64,000 bases of DNA from Bacillota bacterium (GCA_013177945.1 JABLXW010000007.1:1-64000), one strand, 5' to 3'; shown: positions 35,302 through 41,350, numbered from the stretch's first letter. Numbers and translations are program-made. The notes: a model not told the origin generated them from the sequence alone.

Positions 35302-37416
35302 TTATTCGGTGAGAAAGCGGACGATCCCCCGGGCGATGGCTGCGGCAGCCTGCCGCTGGAACTCGGGATTGGCGAGCAGCTGCTCCTCGGCGGGATTGCT
35401 GAGGAAGGCAACCTCCACCAGGGCGGCGGGCATCGCGGTGTACCTCAGCACCGCGAAATTGGCTTCAAAGATCCCGGCATCCCGCAGCCCCAGGGCCCGG
35501 ACGAGCTCCTCCTGGAGCAGCCGGGCCAGGTACAGGCGTACCTCCCGCTCGGGGCCGGGTGTGGTGTCTGGAGGGGCGTAGGTATAAGTTCCTGTCCCTC
35601 CGACAGCCGCATTGGAGGCAGAGTTGGCGTGAATGCTCACAAAAACATCGGCCTGGCTGGCGTTTGCCTTATCGGCGCGCTCCCGCAACTCTACTTCCTG
35701 ATCCCCATCCCTGGTCAAAACCACCTCAAGACCCTGCTCCCGGAGCGCCTCTGCCGCCAGCAGGGCAATCGCCAGGTTGACGTCCTTTTCCCGGATGCCG
35801 GAGGGCCCGATCGCCCCGGGGTCGCGCCCCCCGTGCCCCGGATCGAGAACCACCCGGCGCCCGGCCAGCCCCGAAATTCTGATCCTGATCAGAAGCTCCC
35901 GGGCACCGGCGCGGGGCTCTGCTGTAAAAGAAGCACCCCCTGCCGCCTCCACCACGAGGCGGACCACATCCGGCTGGTACTGCCCGAGGCGCGCCTCGCC
36001 AGGCTCCGGGAAGTTCGCCTCCCTTTTCCAGCCCAGCAGAGCGGGGTGCAAAACAAAACCAGAAAAATCGAAAACGAGCCGCCGCGGACTGCGCAGGGTA
36101 AAAGCACGGTAGGCAAGGGGGGCCGTCCCCCGCAGGGTGATCAGAAAAGTTTCCCCTTCGAGAGCGGCTTCCGCCTGCAAGATCTGATAAGGGATGACCA
36201 CCCGCAACTCCCCTGCAGCAGGCGTTTCCACCTGGTAAAAAACAGGCAGGGGGTTTTCTTCGAAAAGAAGCTCCACTTCGGCAGCGCCAGCCTCACCCTC
36301 AGGGAAACGGGTGACAACCTGCTCCAGCCCGGCTTCCCGGACATCTATCTCCAGGGGAGAGCGGACGACCGTAACCCCGGGGACGGTTACGGTCAGGCGC
36401 CGGGGGTTTTCCTTCTCCTCCCACTTGCAGGCAGCTTCTCTATTGACCGATAGGGTGACCACAAGCCGCCCCGGCTCCCGCCCCACCTTCACCTCAAGCG
36501 TAGAGGGCTCGTCCCGGCTGGGGGGTGGTGCTTCGTACACCTGAACCAGCCAGCCGGCAATCCACCCTCTTTTTCCCTGAAATTCTACCTCGTACCAGTT
36601 GCTGCTGCTGCGCGCCCGCGCCCGGAGGACATCTCCGGCGCGCACCTGGCCCAGAAGAGGGTAACCGGTCCCCGGCCCCGACCTGATGTTGACGATCTCC
36701 TCTTTTACCACCAGGTAAACCGAAACAGGAGTGATTTCCTGCCCACCCCGGGCGCGGCCCACCATCACGGCCGCCTCCGCCCTCGTAATGGAGCGGGTGG
36801 GGCGAAACGTCCCGTCGGGATAACCCCCCAGGATCCCCTTCGATACAAGCGCGGCCACCGCGGGGCGCGCCCAGCTCTCGATCTTCCCGGCATCGGCAAA
36901 CCCCAGGCTTTCCCTCCCCTCCAGGCGAAGCAGCCTCGCCAGAAGACAGGCTGCCTCCTGGCGGGTGACGGCCTTTTGGGGCTTGAAGCTTCCGTCGGGG
37001 TAGCCCTGGGCATAGCCGGCCTCCAGGGCAGCCTGCACCTCTCGGGCAAACCAGTCTTCAGGTTTCACATCTTTGAAAAGGGCCCGCGCCCCCTGAGTTG
37101 ACTTCACGTGGAAAGCGGCGTTGACCAGCGTTACGAACTCGGCGCGGGTCACCGCCCGGTCGGGCCGGAAGGTCCCATCCGGGTACCCCTTCAGGTAGCC
37201 CCCGGCAACCGCCTTCTGAATCTCCCCGGCCGCCCAGTGCCCCTCCAAATCGGCAAACCCCCCGGCAAAGGCCAGGGGTGTGATCGCAAAAAAGCAGCTC
37301 AGAACCACGGCCCCTAAGAAGAAAAGAAAAAGGGCCGCCGGTGTCAGGAAGCCTCTTCCCACCGGGAGACCCCAGTCAAAATTTTTTCGCCCATTTTTCG
37401 ACGCGGACCCTGCCAT
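35302..37416 (-). CDS. SLH-domain N-acetylmuramoyl-L-alanine amidase
   Basis: A secreted wall hydrolase of about 700 residues. Order: signal peptide (LFLFFLGAVVLSCFFAITPL, AFA cleavage site); three SLH repeats (GYPDGTFRP, GYPDGSFKP, GYPDGTFRP); a bacterial SH3 domain (VNIRSGPGTGYPLLGQV); two AMIN-like beta domains; and an Amidase_3 catalytic domain with VVLDPGHGGRDPGAIG, REKDVNLAIAL, VSIHANSASN and VEVAFLSNPAEE (Zn ligands His, Glu, His and catalytic Glu). SLH repeats anchor it to pyruvylated wall polymer. ATG 37416 is chosen for its GGGTGG; earlier in-frame starts exist at 37437 (ATG) and 37476 (TTG). Confidence 0.92.
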   Translation of the reverse strand: MAGSASKNGRKNFDWGLPVGRGFLTPAALFLFFLGAVVLSCFFAITPLAFAGGFADLEGHWAAGEIQKAVAGGYLKGYPDGTFRPDRAVTRAEFVTLVNAAFHVKSTQGARALFKDVKPEDWFAREVQAALEAGYAQGYPDGSFKPQKAVTRQEAACLLARLLRLEGRESLGFADAGKIESWARPAVAALVSKGILGGYPDGTFRPTRSITRAEAAVMVGRARGGQEITPVSVYLVVKEEIVNIRSGPGTGYPLLGQVRAGDVLRARARSSSNWYEVEFQGKRGWIAGWLVQVYEAPPPSRDEPSTLEVKVGREPGRLVVTLSVNREAACKWEEKENPRRLTVTVPGVTVVRSPLEIDVREAGLEQVVTRFPEGEAGAAEVELLFEENPLPVFYQVETPAAGELRVVIPYQILQAEAALEGETFLITLRGTAPLAYRAFTLRSPRRLVFDFSGFVLHPALLGWKREANFPEPGEARLGQYQPDVVRLVVEAAGGASFTAEPRAGARELLIRIRISGLAGRRVVLDPGHGGRDPGAIGPSGIREKDVNLAIALLAAEALREQGLEVVLTRDGDQEVELRERADKANASQADVFVSIHANSASNAAVGGTGTYTYAPPDTTPGPEREVRLYLARLLQEELVRALGLRDAGIFEANFAVLRYTAMPAALVEVAFLSNPAEEQLLANPEFQRQAAAAIARGIVRFLTE

Positions 37417-37525
37417 CCGAACCCACCCTTGCTGCATCTTGCTTGATTTTTTTGCAAATGGCGATTTCGACACCAATTTCCAAATTTCCTGCCGGAAACA
37501 AGGGTGGGAAAAAATAAGTTATTTA

Positions 37526-38161
37526 TTAATTTTTAACAAAGGTCAGATTCCGGAGCAGCGGTTCATCCACGGGGATGTGGCCGGCCAGGGTTTTGCGGAG
37601 CTGGCCCTCCACCAGGATCCTGACCCTTGCCACGGTAGGGAACTCCGTCAGGGTATTCACAACCGCGTAAACGGCCAGCGCCTCCGCCTTCGGATCCTGC
37701 CCGGGGATTTTTGTGGCTGCCCGGTTTAAATCAACAATGCACAGGCCGTCAGGCCTGATATTCAGGTCCCGGACCTCCGTCCCGGCCGGGAGGCTCGGCC
37801 TGAGATCCTTGCCGGCAGGCCCCGCGCAGAGGGCTTCCAGCGCCGCCCTTGCGATGCCGGGAACCTTCACGACCTCCCGGGTTTCCCGGATAAGGTAGCG
37901 TCCCGCCTGGTCCGTAAAATAAAGAGTCACCTTCGTTTTTTCCGGCCCCTCCGGAGGGGCACCCAAATCCTCGGGGAGCAGATCCGGCAAACTCTCCGAC
38001 TGCGCCGGGGCGCGGCCCTGCTTCATCCCCCGCAGCCTCTCGGCCAGGTCGCACCCCCCGGTGGCAAGCAGGGCAAAGAGCAATCCTGCCAGTACCAGGA
38101 AACCCAAACGCAGCCTCGCGCTCCGCCTCTCCTCCTCCCGCAGCTGCTCGAAATTCCTCAT
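37526..38161 (-). CDS. GerMN-domain membrane-anchored protein
   Basis: A 211-residue protein with an N-terminal hydrophobic stretch (LGFLVLAGLLFALLATGGC), possibly a lipoprotein signal with an imperfect lipobox (TGGC). The GerMN domain follows: KVTLYFTDQAGRYLIRETRE, ALEALCAGP, LPAGTEVRDLNI, LCIVDLNRAAT and VNTLTEFPTVARVRILVEG. GerMN domains occur in spore and cell-wall proteins. ATG 38161 behind AAGGAGGG is preferred to a longer frame. It lies about 50 bp upstream of the amidase frame on the same strand, a frequent pairing. Confidence 0.88.
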   Translation of the reverse strand: MRNFEQLREEERRSARLRLGFLVLAGLLFALLATGGCDLAERLRGMKQGRAPAQSESLPDLLPEDLGAPPEGPEKTKVTLYFTDQAGRYLIRETREVVKVPGIARAALEALCAGPAGKDLRPSLPAGTEVRDLNIRPDGLCIVDLNRAATKIPGQDPKAEALAVYAVVNTLTEFPTVARVRILVEGQLRKTLAGHIPVDEPLLRNLTFVKN

Positions 38162-38238
38162 ACAAACCCTCCTTCCTTTAAATGGTTGTCCTTCCTGGAT
38201 CATCCTATGCCCGGAAGGAGGATTTTATGACTGCGGAT

Positions 38239-39147
38239 TCAAGCCGAGGGGAGTTCAACACGGCTGTAGGAAAGCCTGGGAAAACAGAGGATAAACGAGG
38301 TCCCCTCCTCTTCGTTGCTCTCCACCCAGATCTTCCCGCGGTTTTTCTCAACGAGATTCTTCACAATGTAAAGACCGAGCCCCTCTCCCTTTCCGGCTTT
38401 TGTGGTGAAGCCTTTTTGAAAGATCTTGCCCAGATACTCGCGGGGAATGAGGGGGCGGAAGTTTGTGATCCTGATCACATAAGCGTTCTGCTCCTCTCTC
38501 ATTTCAAAATAAATGCGCCGCTGCTCCGGGGGAACTGCCTCCACCGCGTCCAGGGCATTGTCGATCAGGTTCCCCAGCACCCGTGAAAAATCAAGAGGGG
38601 AAATTCCGAGCAGCATCAAATCGGTTTTTAAGTCAACGGCAAAGGAAATGCCTGAGGCCTCAGCCTGGGCTATCTTGCGCATAAGCAGCCCCGCAATCTC
38701 GGGCCGGTGCATTAAGGTGTTGAATACCTTTGAAGATTTTTGAATTTCTTCGTTGACCTGGCTGATGTAATCCTCGACGACGTCGCTTTTCCCCACCTGT
38801 ATGAGGCCGTAAATCACCTGGAGGTGGTTCAAAAAATCATGGCGTTGCGCCCGCAGCATATCCACCATCTGCCGGGTTTCCTGGAGGCGAACCCGGTTGA
38901 CCTCGGCCTCTGCCTGGGCGCGCACCAGCTGCACTACGTTCCTGAGCATAAATATTGCCACCAGGCTGAAAAATCCCCCGGCGGCAACGTAAAAAGCGGC
39001 TAAAGCCGTGAGTGCCCGTTCCTGCAAAAGATCGAAAACATTCCAGAATTGAAGCACCCCGAAAAACAGAACAAGAAAGGCCTGCGCCAGAATCACGTTG
39101 AGGAGCAGGATCGCCCGCCGGTCGAAAGGCAGCTTTACACTTCCCAT
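38239..39147 (-). CDS. Spo0B/AgrC-type sensor histidine kinase with two membrane spans
   Basis: A 302-residue kinase. Two spans (about 13-35 and 46-69), then a coiled coil, then the Spo0B-type phospho-acceptor LRAQRHDFLNHLQVIYGLIQ with His103, and a GHKL ATPase: NLIDNALDAVEAV (N box), KIFQKGFTTKAGKGEGLGLY and IVKNL (G boxes). The catalytic half is that of AgrC-like and citrate/malate sensor kinases, but the five-to-seven-span AgrC sensor is missing. It is last in a run with agrB, agrD and two small membrane proteins. No response regulator is adjacent. Confidence 0.9.
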   Translation of the reverse strand: MGSVKLPFDRRAILLLNVILAQAFLVLFFGVLQFWNVFDLLQERALTALAAFYVAAGGFFSLVAIFMLRNVVQLVRAQAEAEVNRVRLQETRQMVDMLRAQRHDFLNHLQVIYGLIQVGKSDVVEDYISQVNEEIQKSSKVFNTLMHRPEIAGLLMRKIAQAEASGISFAVDLKTDLMLLGISPLDFSRVLGNLIDNALDAVEAVPPEQRRIYFEMREEQNAYVIRITNFRPLIPREYLGKIFQKGFTTKAGKGEGLGLYIVKNLVEKNRGKIWVESNEEEGTSFILCFPRLSYSRVELPSA

Positions 39148-39278
39148 CGCTTCGCTCCCAAAACAAAAATAACAACCATCCCGGTCTCAGCTTAAAAGAA
39201 CCCATAATTTCGCTTGCGGACTGCTTGCTGGTAAATTACGACAAGCTCTCTGAAAATCCTGCCTTATCTTGATAATAC

Positions 39279-39758
39279 TTATAGTCTCCCCATCGCACCG
39301 GGATCGCCTGTTTCGAACTGGAAGAGCTGGAACTTATAGAGCCTGCAAAGCAAGGCGAGAATGCCCAGAGGGAGATCCTCCAGGAGCCCAAAAAAGAAAC
39401 GTAAAACCGGGTTCTCCAGCACTTCTTTAAAATCCCAGCCCAGGAGCAAGACCGCTCCGAAAACGGATGCGGTTCCTGTGAGCAGGAGCAGGGTGAAGCT
39501 GAGCAGGCCCGCCGCGCTGGCAATTCCCCACGGCACCGGCAAGGAAAAGCGCAAAAAAAGGATCAGGACAAGAGCCCCGATTACAGTATGAGCACCTATG
39601 GGAATGTAATGAAGATCGGTGAGGCTCCGGATGAGAAACCCCGCCACCCCCACGACAATTCCACCCCAAAGGGTTTTTCTCCAGCCCGGCGCAAATCCCA
39701 GCAGGCTGGGGCCCATATAAAACAAAAGCGCTCCCTCCACCAGGGCGTTGAGCAGCAT
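39279..39758 (-). CDS. small multispan membrane protein B of the agr-like cassette
   Basis: A 159-residue protein with about five hydrophobic spans and no known domain. It is a clear paralogue of the upstream gene product (39871-40380): both share VEG-L--Y near the start, then R-L---YIP-G-HT----LV--L--R, PWGI/EWGV, and a C-terminal L-LAL-C-L--F pattern. ATG 39758 lies behind GGGGAGGGGG. Placed between agrD and the kinase, it could be the sensor or an export accessory; this is inference. Confidence 0.75.
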   Translation of the reverse strand: MLLNALVEGALLFYMGPSLLGFAPGWRKTLWGGIVVGVAGFLIRSLTDLHYIPIGAHTVIGALVLILFLRFSLPVPWGIASAAGLLSFTLLLLTGTASVFGAVLLLGWDFKEVLENPVLRFFFGLLEDLPLGILALLCRLYKFQLFQFETGDPGAMGRL

Positions 39759-39824
39759 TCCGCCCCCTCCCCTTGCGAAGTTTGTTCTGAAAAGCTTCTC
39801 AACGGAATCTGGCGCTTTAAACGC

Positions 39825-39859
39825 AAGTTGGGACCCGGCTTCCGGCCGGGTCCCAACTT
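39825..39859 (-). terminator. strong hairpin between the two paralogous membrane protein genes
   Basis: Perfect 14-bp arms, 39825-39838 and 39846-39859, with a 7-nt loop (arm AAGTTGGGACCCGG). On the minus strand the downstream bases (GCGTTTAAAG) make a poor U-tract, so it may be a leaky terminator, attenuator or RNA-processing barrier rather than a full stop. Confidence 0.55.
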
Positions 39860-39870
39860 CTTGCTCTTTT

Positions 39871-40380
39871 TCACTCTTTTTCTTCTTCTACGCTCGGAAG
39901 CTCTTTGAGTTCCCTCTTCAAATCAATGAGGTGAAACCCCGTCAGGGCGCAGACCAGGGCAAGGACGACAACAGGGAGCTCCACCAGCCAGCCCAGCAAA
40001 ATGTGCAGCCATACGTCGGCCAAAATCTGGTCGATGCTCATTTTAAACAAGCCTGTTACAGGAACCAGCAAGCAGGCCTCGGACAACTGCACCAGGATGA
40101 AGCCCAGCAGGGCGGCAACTGTTCCCACTCCCCACTCGATCCGCGCGACATAGCGGTACAGGAGCACCATCACCAGAATCATCACAAGGGTATGGGAGCC
40201 GAAGGGGATCCCGGTGTAGGCATAGAGCCCCCGTAAAAGGTAAACAGCAAGGCCAGATACAACACCAATTACGAGCAAACGGAAAAGGGGTATCCGCAGT
40301 CTTAACAGAGAAAGAGAACAATAAGCCATCAGGCTTCCTTCTACCATATGAAGAAAAAAGAGCACCCTGAGATCCTCCAC
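39871..40380 (-). CDS. small multispan membrane protein A of the agr-like cassette
   Basis: A 169-residue protein with about five to six spans and a charged cytosolic tail (HLIDLKRELKELPSVEEEKE). The frame opens at a TTG at 40395, but a GTG at 40380 has GGGAGG seven bases upstream and is preferred. It lies 16 bp downstream of agrD. Paralogue of 39279-39758. Conserved polar positions inside spans (VEGSLMAYCSL; YTGIPFGSHTLVMILV; EWGVGTVAALLGF) suggest a binding or catalytic pocket. No family name can be assigned from sequence alone. Confidence 0.78.
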   Translation of the reverse strand: MEDLRVLFFLHMVEGSLMAYCSLSLLRLRIPLFRLLVIGVVSGLAVYLLRGLYAYTGIPFGSHTLVMILVMVLLYRYVARIEWGVGTVAALLGFILVQLSEACLLVPVTGLFKMSIDQILADVWLHILLGWLVELPVVVLALVCALTGFHLIDLKRELKELPSVEEEKE

Positions 40381-40396
40381 AAAGCCGCCTCCCAAG

Positions 40397-40534
40397 CTAT
40401 CTATTCTTTAACACCTCCGGCACTTTAGGTTGATAAAAGGAGAGGGTACACAAGGGGCCAACAAAACCGGCAGCGACAACCGAAAGCGCCAGGGCGGTGA
40501 AACCTGCTGCCCAAACAGCCAGCTTTTTAAGCAT
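40397..40534 (-). CDS. agrD: AgrD-like cyclic lactone/thiolactone autoinducer prepeptide
   Basis: A 45-residue peptide: Lys-rich start MLKKLAVWAAG, an amphipathic/hydrophobic leader to about residue 27, then Cys29 in GPLCTLSFYQPKVPEVLKNR. The C-terminal -YQPKVPEVL tail with prolines and charged residues is the recognition region processed by AgrB in clostridial AgrD peptides. If ring closure uses Cys29, the macrocycle lies within CTLSFY. ATG 40534 behind GGAGGGAAGGAG overlaps agrB by 8 bp; an in-frame start 23 codons upstream is discounted. Confidence 0.88.
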   Translation of the reverse strand: MLKKLAVWAAGFTALALSVVAAGFVGPLCTLSFYQPKVPEVLKNR

Positions 40535-41204
40535 CTCCTTCCCTCCTTTCTGAAAAGAGCCTTCCCACGCCTTTTTCCAGGCGCGGGAGGAGCCGGCAGG
40601 CAACCGGCGTCAGGGTGAAGAGCTGCCACCATAATCCCAGGGTGCTTGCAAAAAGAACCTGCCGGAGGAAAACCTCTTCCTCCGGCAGGAAACCTCTCCA
40701 GGTCAGGCCGGGGGCTGCAGCTGCAACCGCCAGCAGGGTCCAGCCCGAAACCACGTATTTTGCGACCCTCTTCTTTGAAAGCTCCTCTTCCAGGGAGAAG
40801 GACCGCGCCGCGCAGCCGGCCGGAGCGTAAAGGTGAACAAGCAAAAAGCCGGCGGGACCGGTCAGGAGCACAATGAAAAACAAAACCCGGAGGCTCACCG
40901 CAATTCCCGCCTCCTGCGCCGCGAGGCCGATCAGGGTAAAAACAGCCCCCCCGAAGAGAGCGCAGAAGTAAGGATTTGAGGCGTGCACGCCACCGGCAAC
41001 GGCCCGCAGGGCCGCCCCGGTAAAAGCGGCCGCAAGGACAAGGGGAACAACCCCTGCCGCCAGGCCCCCCAAAAGGAGCACCGCCAGGCTCAAGAGAGTG
41101 CTCAGAACAACCTCCAGGCCGTAGGTGAGAACCGGAATTTGCGCCTCAGGAAGGTTTAAAACTTTTGCCAACCCCGCGCTGATCCTGCCGGAAAACCGGT
41201 GCAT
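40527..41204 (-). CDS. agrB: AgrB-like accessory gene regulator protease
   Basis: A membrane cysteine protease that cleaves and cyclises AgrD. Its 225 residues have about six spans. The catalytic pair is in LRAVAGGVHASNPYFCALF, a His and a Cys seven positions apart, matching the His77/Cys84 spacing known in Staphylococcus AgrB. ATG 41204 with GGAAGG six bases upstream is preferred over a GTG eight codons earlier. It starts the cassette agrB-agrD-A-B-kinase. Confidence 0.92.
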   Translation of the reverse strand: MHRFSGRISAGLAKVLNLPEAQIPVLTYGLEVVLSTLLSLAVLLLGGLAAGVVPLVLAAAFTGAALRAVAGGVHASNPYFCALFGGAVFTLIGLAAQEAGIAVSLRVLFFIVLLTGPAGFLLVHLYAPAGCAARSFSLEEELSKKRVAKYVVSGWTLLAVAAAAPGLTWRGFLPEEEVFLRQVLFASTLGLWWQLFTLTPVACRLLPRLEKGVGRLFSERREGDA

Positions 41205-41350
41205 TCTTTTCCTTCCATCCTTCTCCACACATGATAATTTTTTGAAGTATACGACATTAATTCCAGTTATTCCTCCTTTTTTATCTGAAAAATTTGCAAA
41301 ATATTTCGTGTTTTTTCGACTTTTTGAGACCGCGCCCTGCCTTTCGCAGG

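Follow-up and report, generated by a model that had tools for sequence, protein, structure and literature searches.

In intramembrane-sensing systems of the BceS/BceAB type, a sensorless kinase with two membrane spans is signalled by a separate multispan protein, an ATP-binding cassette transporter for antimicrobial peptides. The locus described here, an agr-type cassette of five consecutive genes on the minus strand (41228-38239) of a 64,000-nucleotide stretch of DNA from a Bacillota bacterium (GCA_013177945.1 JABLXW010000007.1:1-64000; this whole stretch is termed the window in the following), likewise combines a two-span kinase with a separate, putative membrane partner, but here the partner is a predicted five-helix protein that is also found fused to kinases. 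In the direction of transcription the genes encode AgrB, AgrD, two multispan proteins termed A and B, and the two-span kinase. Compared with the S. aureus-type agrBDCA system, the AgrB and AgrD families are again adjacent, the predicted peptide ring is of the usual size and the kinase is comparable to AgrC from position 139 on. The window differs in that the putative sensor resides on separate proteins and in two copies, in that the two-span kinase carries an SPOB_a phospho-acceptor domain and in that no agrA gene adjoins. A further point of reference is a laboratory construct, AgrC 134-430, that comprises transmembrane helices 5-6 and the cytoplasmic part of AgrC and is a constitutively active kinase in vitro, with a reported stimulation of the truncated two-helix protein by peptide of about 2-fold (PMC3841183). 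The window kinase shares this anatomy of the last two helices plus the catalytic part, but is natural, and the missing part appears to lie in neighbouring genes. We consider it probable that the locus is a quorum-sensing cassette with a split receptor kinase, in which A and B are detached and strongly diverged sensors of the AgrC type.

The kinase gene (38239..39147, minus strand) encodes a protein with two membrane spans that matches SPOB_a (PF14689) with 71 bits and HATPase_c (PF02518/PF14501) with 72 bits and has intact H, N and G boxes (H103, N193, N197, G256, G258). Its chain does not unite a multispan sensor with the kinase. The alignment to the staphylococcal AgrC model NF046015 covers only positions 139-396 of 414 (67.9 bits, cut-off 500), so that the missing sensor approximately corresponds to what A and B would supply. 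Protein A (39871..40395, minus strand; 174 residues when read from TTG) is a stand-alone, receptor-like domain; its start is probably the GTG at 40380 behind GGGAGG, which yields 169 residues and fits the same-genus homologue better. Protein B (39279..39758, minus strand; 159 residues) is 33% identical to A (E 5e-16), and the two are true paralogues. Both retain an arginine and a glycine that are conserved at more than 90% in the family, in B as part of the R...G.H motif. An earlier note on this DNA, made from the sequence alone, had listed agrB, an AgrD-type prepeptide, two related multispan proteins, a two-span kinase devoid of its sensor and the lack of an adjoining response regulator, and every item of this description was recovered.

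The main support for a split receptor stems from proteins in which the parts are joined. In the 61 relatives that were searched, A-type proteins are encoded directly before two-span kinases, mostly beside AgrB, and also occur inside longer reading frames of about 450 residues. The fused proteins (kinases of 440-480 residues; in a genome scan, open frames of 445-496 residues with E values down to 8e-38) consist of an A-type domain, two helices and an SPOB_a-type kinase, i.e., of the parts found in window A and the window kinase, so that A and the kinase together amount to a natural seven-span protein. Such fused seven-span kinases (e.g., L062, L130 and L139) have AgrB and AgrD, and in most cases a LytTR regulator, as neighbours; they have the same parts that are distributed over separate genes in the window. 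A profile built from stand-alone A-type proteins only scored 56-130 bits against the N-termini of 15 fused kinases, compared with at most 8.2 bits for 749 shuffled sequences and at most 5.6 bits for 99 AgrB membrane proteins. The relation therefore is a real one and not a matter of hydrophobic composition. When the labels fused and split were placed on a tree of 85 kinase domains, derived by a quick method, they required 8 changes, at least 4 of them forced by well-supported branches. Fused and separate forms thus interchange repeatedly, as expected if the separate pieces work together like the fused protein.

Structure prediction by AlphaFold2, carried out on single chains, is consistent with this picture. 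For A, with 95 sequences in the alignment, five membrane helices were predicted at a mean predicted local distance difference test score (pLDDT) of 93.4. A fused kinase (mean pLDDT 86.9, predicted template modelling score 0.61) was modelled with five helices, two more helices leading into the signalling helix and then the kinase domains, and its kinase part resembles solved histidine kinases, AgrC included. A mixed alignment (A6) of A proteins, kinases and fusions split the A proteins badly and was kept out of the prediction. The search by profile and by structure that the earlier note had proposed for A and B led to neither a named family nor a convincing solved fold: comparison of the A model with the PDB (Foldseek, VIA-align) yielded nothing convincing (best Z 4.4), and matches in BFVD were only weak. 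A and B gave nothing at E <= 1 against Pfam and, against NCBIfam, a sole insignificant match of B (E 0.08), and no model in Pfam, NCBIfam or PHROGs describes the A-type family. Kinship of A with SpoIIGA (Peptidase_U4) was considered as well but is not supported: 1 of 95 A-type proteins matched, at 3e-5, and comparing profiles with 30 SpoIIGA proteins yielded no more than about 3%.

The distribution of A-type domains was surveyed in 135 instances, with the window and the same-genus locus left out. Directly upstream of a two-span kinase are 61 of these domains, and 24 are fused to one, which supports the split-receptor reading that the earlier note had put forward. The same note had held that homologues occurring widely away from agrBD, or membership in a named family of enzymes, would speak against it; AgrB or AgrD was present within 4 kilobases (kb) in 114 of the 135 cases, and no consistent match to enzyme families was found among A-type proteins. 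A wider survey of the phylum, covering 398 genomes, yielded A-profile matches in 153. AgrB was detected in 142 of these 153, and A in 142 of the 165 genomes with AgrB (odds ratio 125, uncorrected for kinship among the 398 genomes). In the AgrB loci read in genomes without an A match, the neighbour of AgrB is mostly an ordinary one-chain kinase of 418-447 residues. The co-occurrence across genomes that the note had suggested examining largely holds for AgrB; A is not confined to this type of kinase, as detailed below.

Whether A and B are related by descent to the sensor of classical AgrC was addressed by comparing the A profile with that of 24 AgrC-like sensors. A collinear match was obtained with 57-59% probability (P about 1e-4), compared with at most 1.5% for reversed and AgrB controls. 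Fused kinases cover nearly the entire length of the AgrC model (12-395, 8-395 and 16-398). An AgrC-like kinase encoded on a Paraclostridium bifermentans plasmid scored near background, which is not significant. Homology of A to classical AgrC sensors is therefore suggestive, not secure. Most likely, judging from these comparisons and from the fusions, A and B are sensor domains of agr-linked kinases that would work like the sensor of AgrC.

Several observations weigh against a split receptor of this kind. The survey covers the loci that scored better in the search, and the fractions given above therefore do not amount to an unbiased census. AgrB or AgrD but no kinase was found within 4 kb of 22 of the 135 A-type domains, and a further 28 have a neighbouring kinase that differs in type or position, so that the association of A is not restricted to this kinase. 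An A-type gene and a kinase but no AgrB were found in six genomes (G005, G008, G012, G013, G019 and G049), of which several are incomplete assemblies. The window encodes two A-type proteins per one kinase, where a simple one-to-one split needs one. Finally, just 1 of 95 stand-alone A-type members matches NF046015 (2.3e-4), the sole NCBIfam model matched, and isolated A-domains gave no match to the AgrC model.

It is against this background that other explanations have to be judged. A and B might be partners of AgrB that act in AgrD processing, export, anchoring or immunity, the two-span kinase then sensing the peptide or the membrane itself. The 22 A-type domains accompanied by AgrB/AgrD without a kinase, whose genes in many cases immediately precede and overlap that of AgrB, fit such a role, as does the peptide response reported for the two-helix AgrC mentioned above (PMC3841183). 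On the other hand, there are 24 fusions of the A-domain to kinases and none to AgrB in the loci read, and the pairs of A and kinase in the six genomes in which no AgrB was found would leave a processing helper idle. We regard this explanation as unlikely, and a function of the paralogues in export, immunity or modification, offered by the earlier note as the alternative to a split receptor, accordingly ranks below the latter. A much more remote idea is that the cassette is decaying, with a kinase that has lost sensor and regulator and with A and B as remnants of a broken agrC gene. The lack of a nearby regulator, the two-span kinase and a frameshifted agrB at a second agr locus of the same genome could be read in this way, but many families have retained the split order with intact reading frames, the kinase boxes are preserved, and A and B, likewise intact, share 74% and 64% identity with the corresponding same-genus proteins. 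In addition, a regulator is lacking from the stretch read in all of 18 related split loci, which makes the absence of the regulator a stable trait of the clade. We consider decay highly improbable.

A further proposal is compatible with a split receptor and refines it: A and B may form one heteromer, or may be two receptors for two peptides, feeding one kinase, with A reading the cassette's own peptide and B another one, such as the peptide from the second agr locus (contig C13). In the tree of A-type domains, A and B of the window are located on separate branches, and B groups with the same-genus B instead of being sister to A, which points to B as an old branch of the family and not a recent copy of A. 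That B has been kept in both members of the genus and has retained the conserved arginine and glycine agrees with an input of its own. Tandem A-type genes recur in 11 further loci, and with many switches of the tandem label over the tree of A-type domains, possession of more than one receptor is a condition that has recurred. One of these loci (L165:1642-4489) features two fused A-kinase genes in tandem that adjoin one AgrB/AgrD pair. The other signal could come from the second agr locus, which comprises an A-type gene, a kinase, AgrD-like genes and a LytTR regulator, but this locus thereby also has its own receptor, and genome G005, the nearest relative outside the genus, has A and the kinase at the same site without B. 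The odds of this refinement appear somewhat short of even.

Returning to the split receptor kinase as the preferred interpretation, its mode of action can be outlined as follows. AgrB, as a membrane peptidase, would cut and cyclise AgrD to an autoinducing peptide that leaves the cell. A, and perhaps B, would recognise this peptide from outside, each corresponding to the N-terminal sensor in kinases of the AgrC type. Both would pack against the two kinase helices within the membrane, which would restore the seven spans of the fused kinases, and would switch kinase autophosphorylation. The phosphate would then be passed to a regulator encoded elsewhere, for which one of two LytTR regulators or a sporulation regulator are candidates. 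Least certain are the roles of the two paralogues, which may either act as alternative inputs to a single kinase or combine as the halves of a heteromer. Rather less likely than not is the broader notion that A and B belong to a large unnamed family of free-standing agr-signal receptors able to serve various kinases, namely two-span SPOB_a kinases as in the window and possibly HisKA/PAS kinases elsewhere, with one kinase able to take two receptors and some cells listening without making peptide.

With regard to the regulator, none adjoins the window cassette. A response regulator was found within 4 kb in none of the 18 split loci in the clade of the window kinase, the stretch read being short in some of them, vs. 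21 of the 24 fused domains. The window genome encodes two LytTR regulators, one on C13 at the second agr locus and one on C11 beside another SPOB-type kinase. This second locus (L060:5358-8724, corresponding to about 123357-126723 on C13) comprises an A-type gene, a two-span kinase, AgrB, a LytTR regulator and AgrD. Its agrB is frameshifted into two overlapping frames of 138 and 122 residues, which is either real or an assembly error. An AgrD-like frame nearby (L060:1985-2167) carries arginine in place of the ring cysteine (STARWFHWYQPKLPEKG vs. STTCWFHWYQPKVPEKG), so that the usual thiolactone could not form.

The agr system itself is known. What is new here is a widespread agr variant with an unnamed family of putative receptors that is able to exist apart from the kinase. 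The view of the earlier note that the cassette is a candidate for an undescribed system therefore has to be divided: it stands for the detached, unnamed sensor domain and falls for the cassette as a whole, which is an agr system and not a new kind of system. A description of a detached AgrC sensor was not found in open papers, which is not proof of novelty; papers using the term 'split histidine kinase' exist. Several clostridial agr loci have been called incomplete as no agrC is annotated, and an unnamed family beside agrBD in most of the sampled genomes with AgrB would explain the place of the receptor. The family supplies candidate receptor genes, and with a receptor that is naturally apart from its kinase, the sensing of peptide could be separated in vitro from the control of the kinase. 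If tandem receptors act on one kinase, they would offer a simple means of integrating two signals.

In Clostridium perfringens, two hypothetical genes are co-transcribed upstream of agrB-agrD in the order CPE1563-CPE1562-agrB-agrD, without agrC (PMC2706048). This order matches that of A-A-AgrB-AgrD loci (L142, L144 and L148), the likeness being one of gene order alone; the exact C. perfringens agrB primer (PMC2706048) had no match in the genome-contig collection. For C. perfringens, a role of VirS as receptor for the peptide has been proposed (PMC7492741). The loci L142, L144 and L148 belong, together with L121, L123, L145, L152, L153 and L118, to A-AgrB-AgrD loci whose A-type proteins form a separate clade; they have one or two A genes and no two-span kinase, often with a neighbouring HisKA/PAS kinase. 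Locus L140, outside this clade, contains three A genes.

The remaining parts of the cassette conform to agr systems. The agrB gene (40527..41228, minus strand) starts with GTG and encodes 233 residues that match PF04647 with 84.2 bits (E 9.8e-24, gathering score 23), and the protein carries, as read in its sequence, the H...C pair of AgrB peptidases (GGVHASNPYFC). Overlapping its end, agrD (40397..40534, minus strand) encodes a prepeptide of 45 residues that matches TIGR04223 with 32.7 bits (cut-off 19). Its core reads ...GPL-CTLSF-YQPKVPEVL, that of the same-genus homologue ...GPLCTFSLYQPEVPEVLKNR, and by comparison with known prepeptides the ring is likely CTLSF, located ahead of YQPKVPEVL. 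In the gap between A and B, a hairpin with a 16-pair stem (39825..39859, minus strand) was reported by the terminator scan on the plus strand and folds stably in the direction of the genes. It is possibly an attenuator that could make B and the kinase less strongly expressed than agrBD-A; the hairpin is absent at the same place in G001, the other member of the genus, in which gene order and the A/B pair are conserved.

A number of related loci differ in their surroundings. Combinations of A and a two-span kinase with no agrB or agrD nearby occur at L032 (in G005), L036, L038, L041, L042 and L067, in genomes in which no AgrB was found; these may be listeners or may have arisen by loss. In G005, the genes that flank the window cassette surround the A-kinase pair, and agrB, agrD and B are absent. 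A search for A-related loci in the genome-contig collection gave no match, and no close relatives of the cassette emerged from phage and plasmid searches. The only plasmid match for an A-type protein, L163 (NZ_CP061968.1 10006-18425), is an A-AgrB-AgrD locus with 57.5% G+C that is labelled as a Klebsiella pneumoniae plasmid; most likely, it represents contamination by, or mislabelling of, Firmicutes sequence. Directly behind the kinase, the window (35302-38203) contains a gene for a GerM-type (Germane) lipoprotein and one for an SLH-domain amidase, in the same order as in G001 and G005, and this conserved neighbourhood is linked to sporulation or the cell wall.

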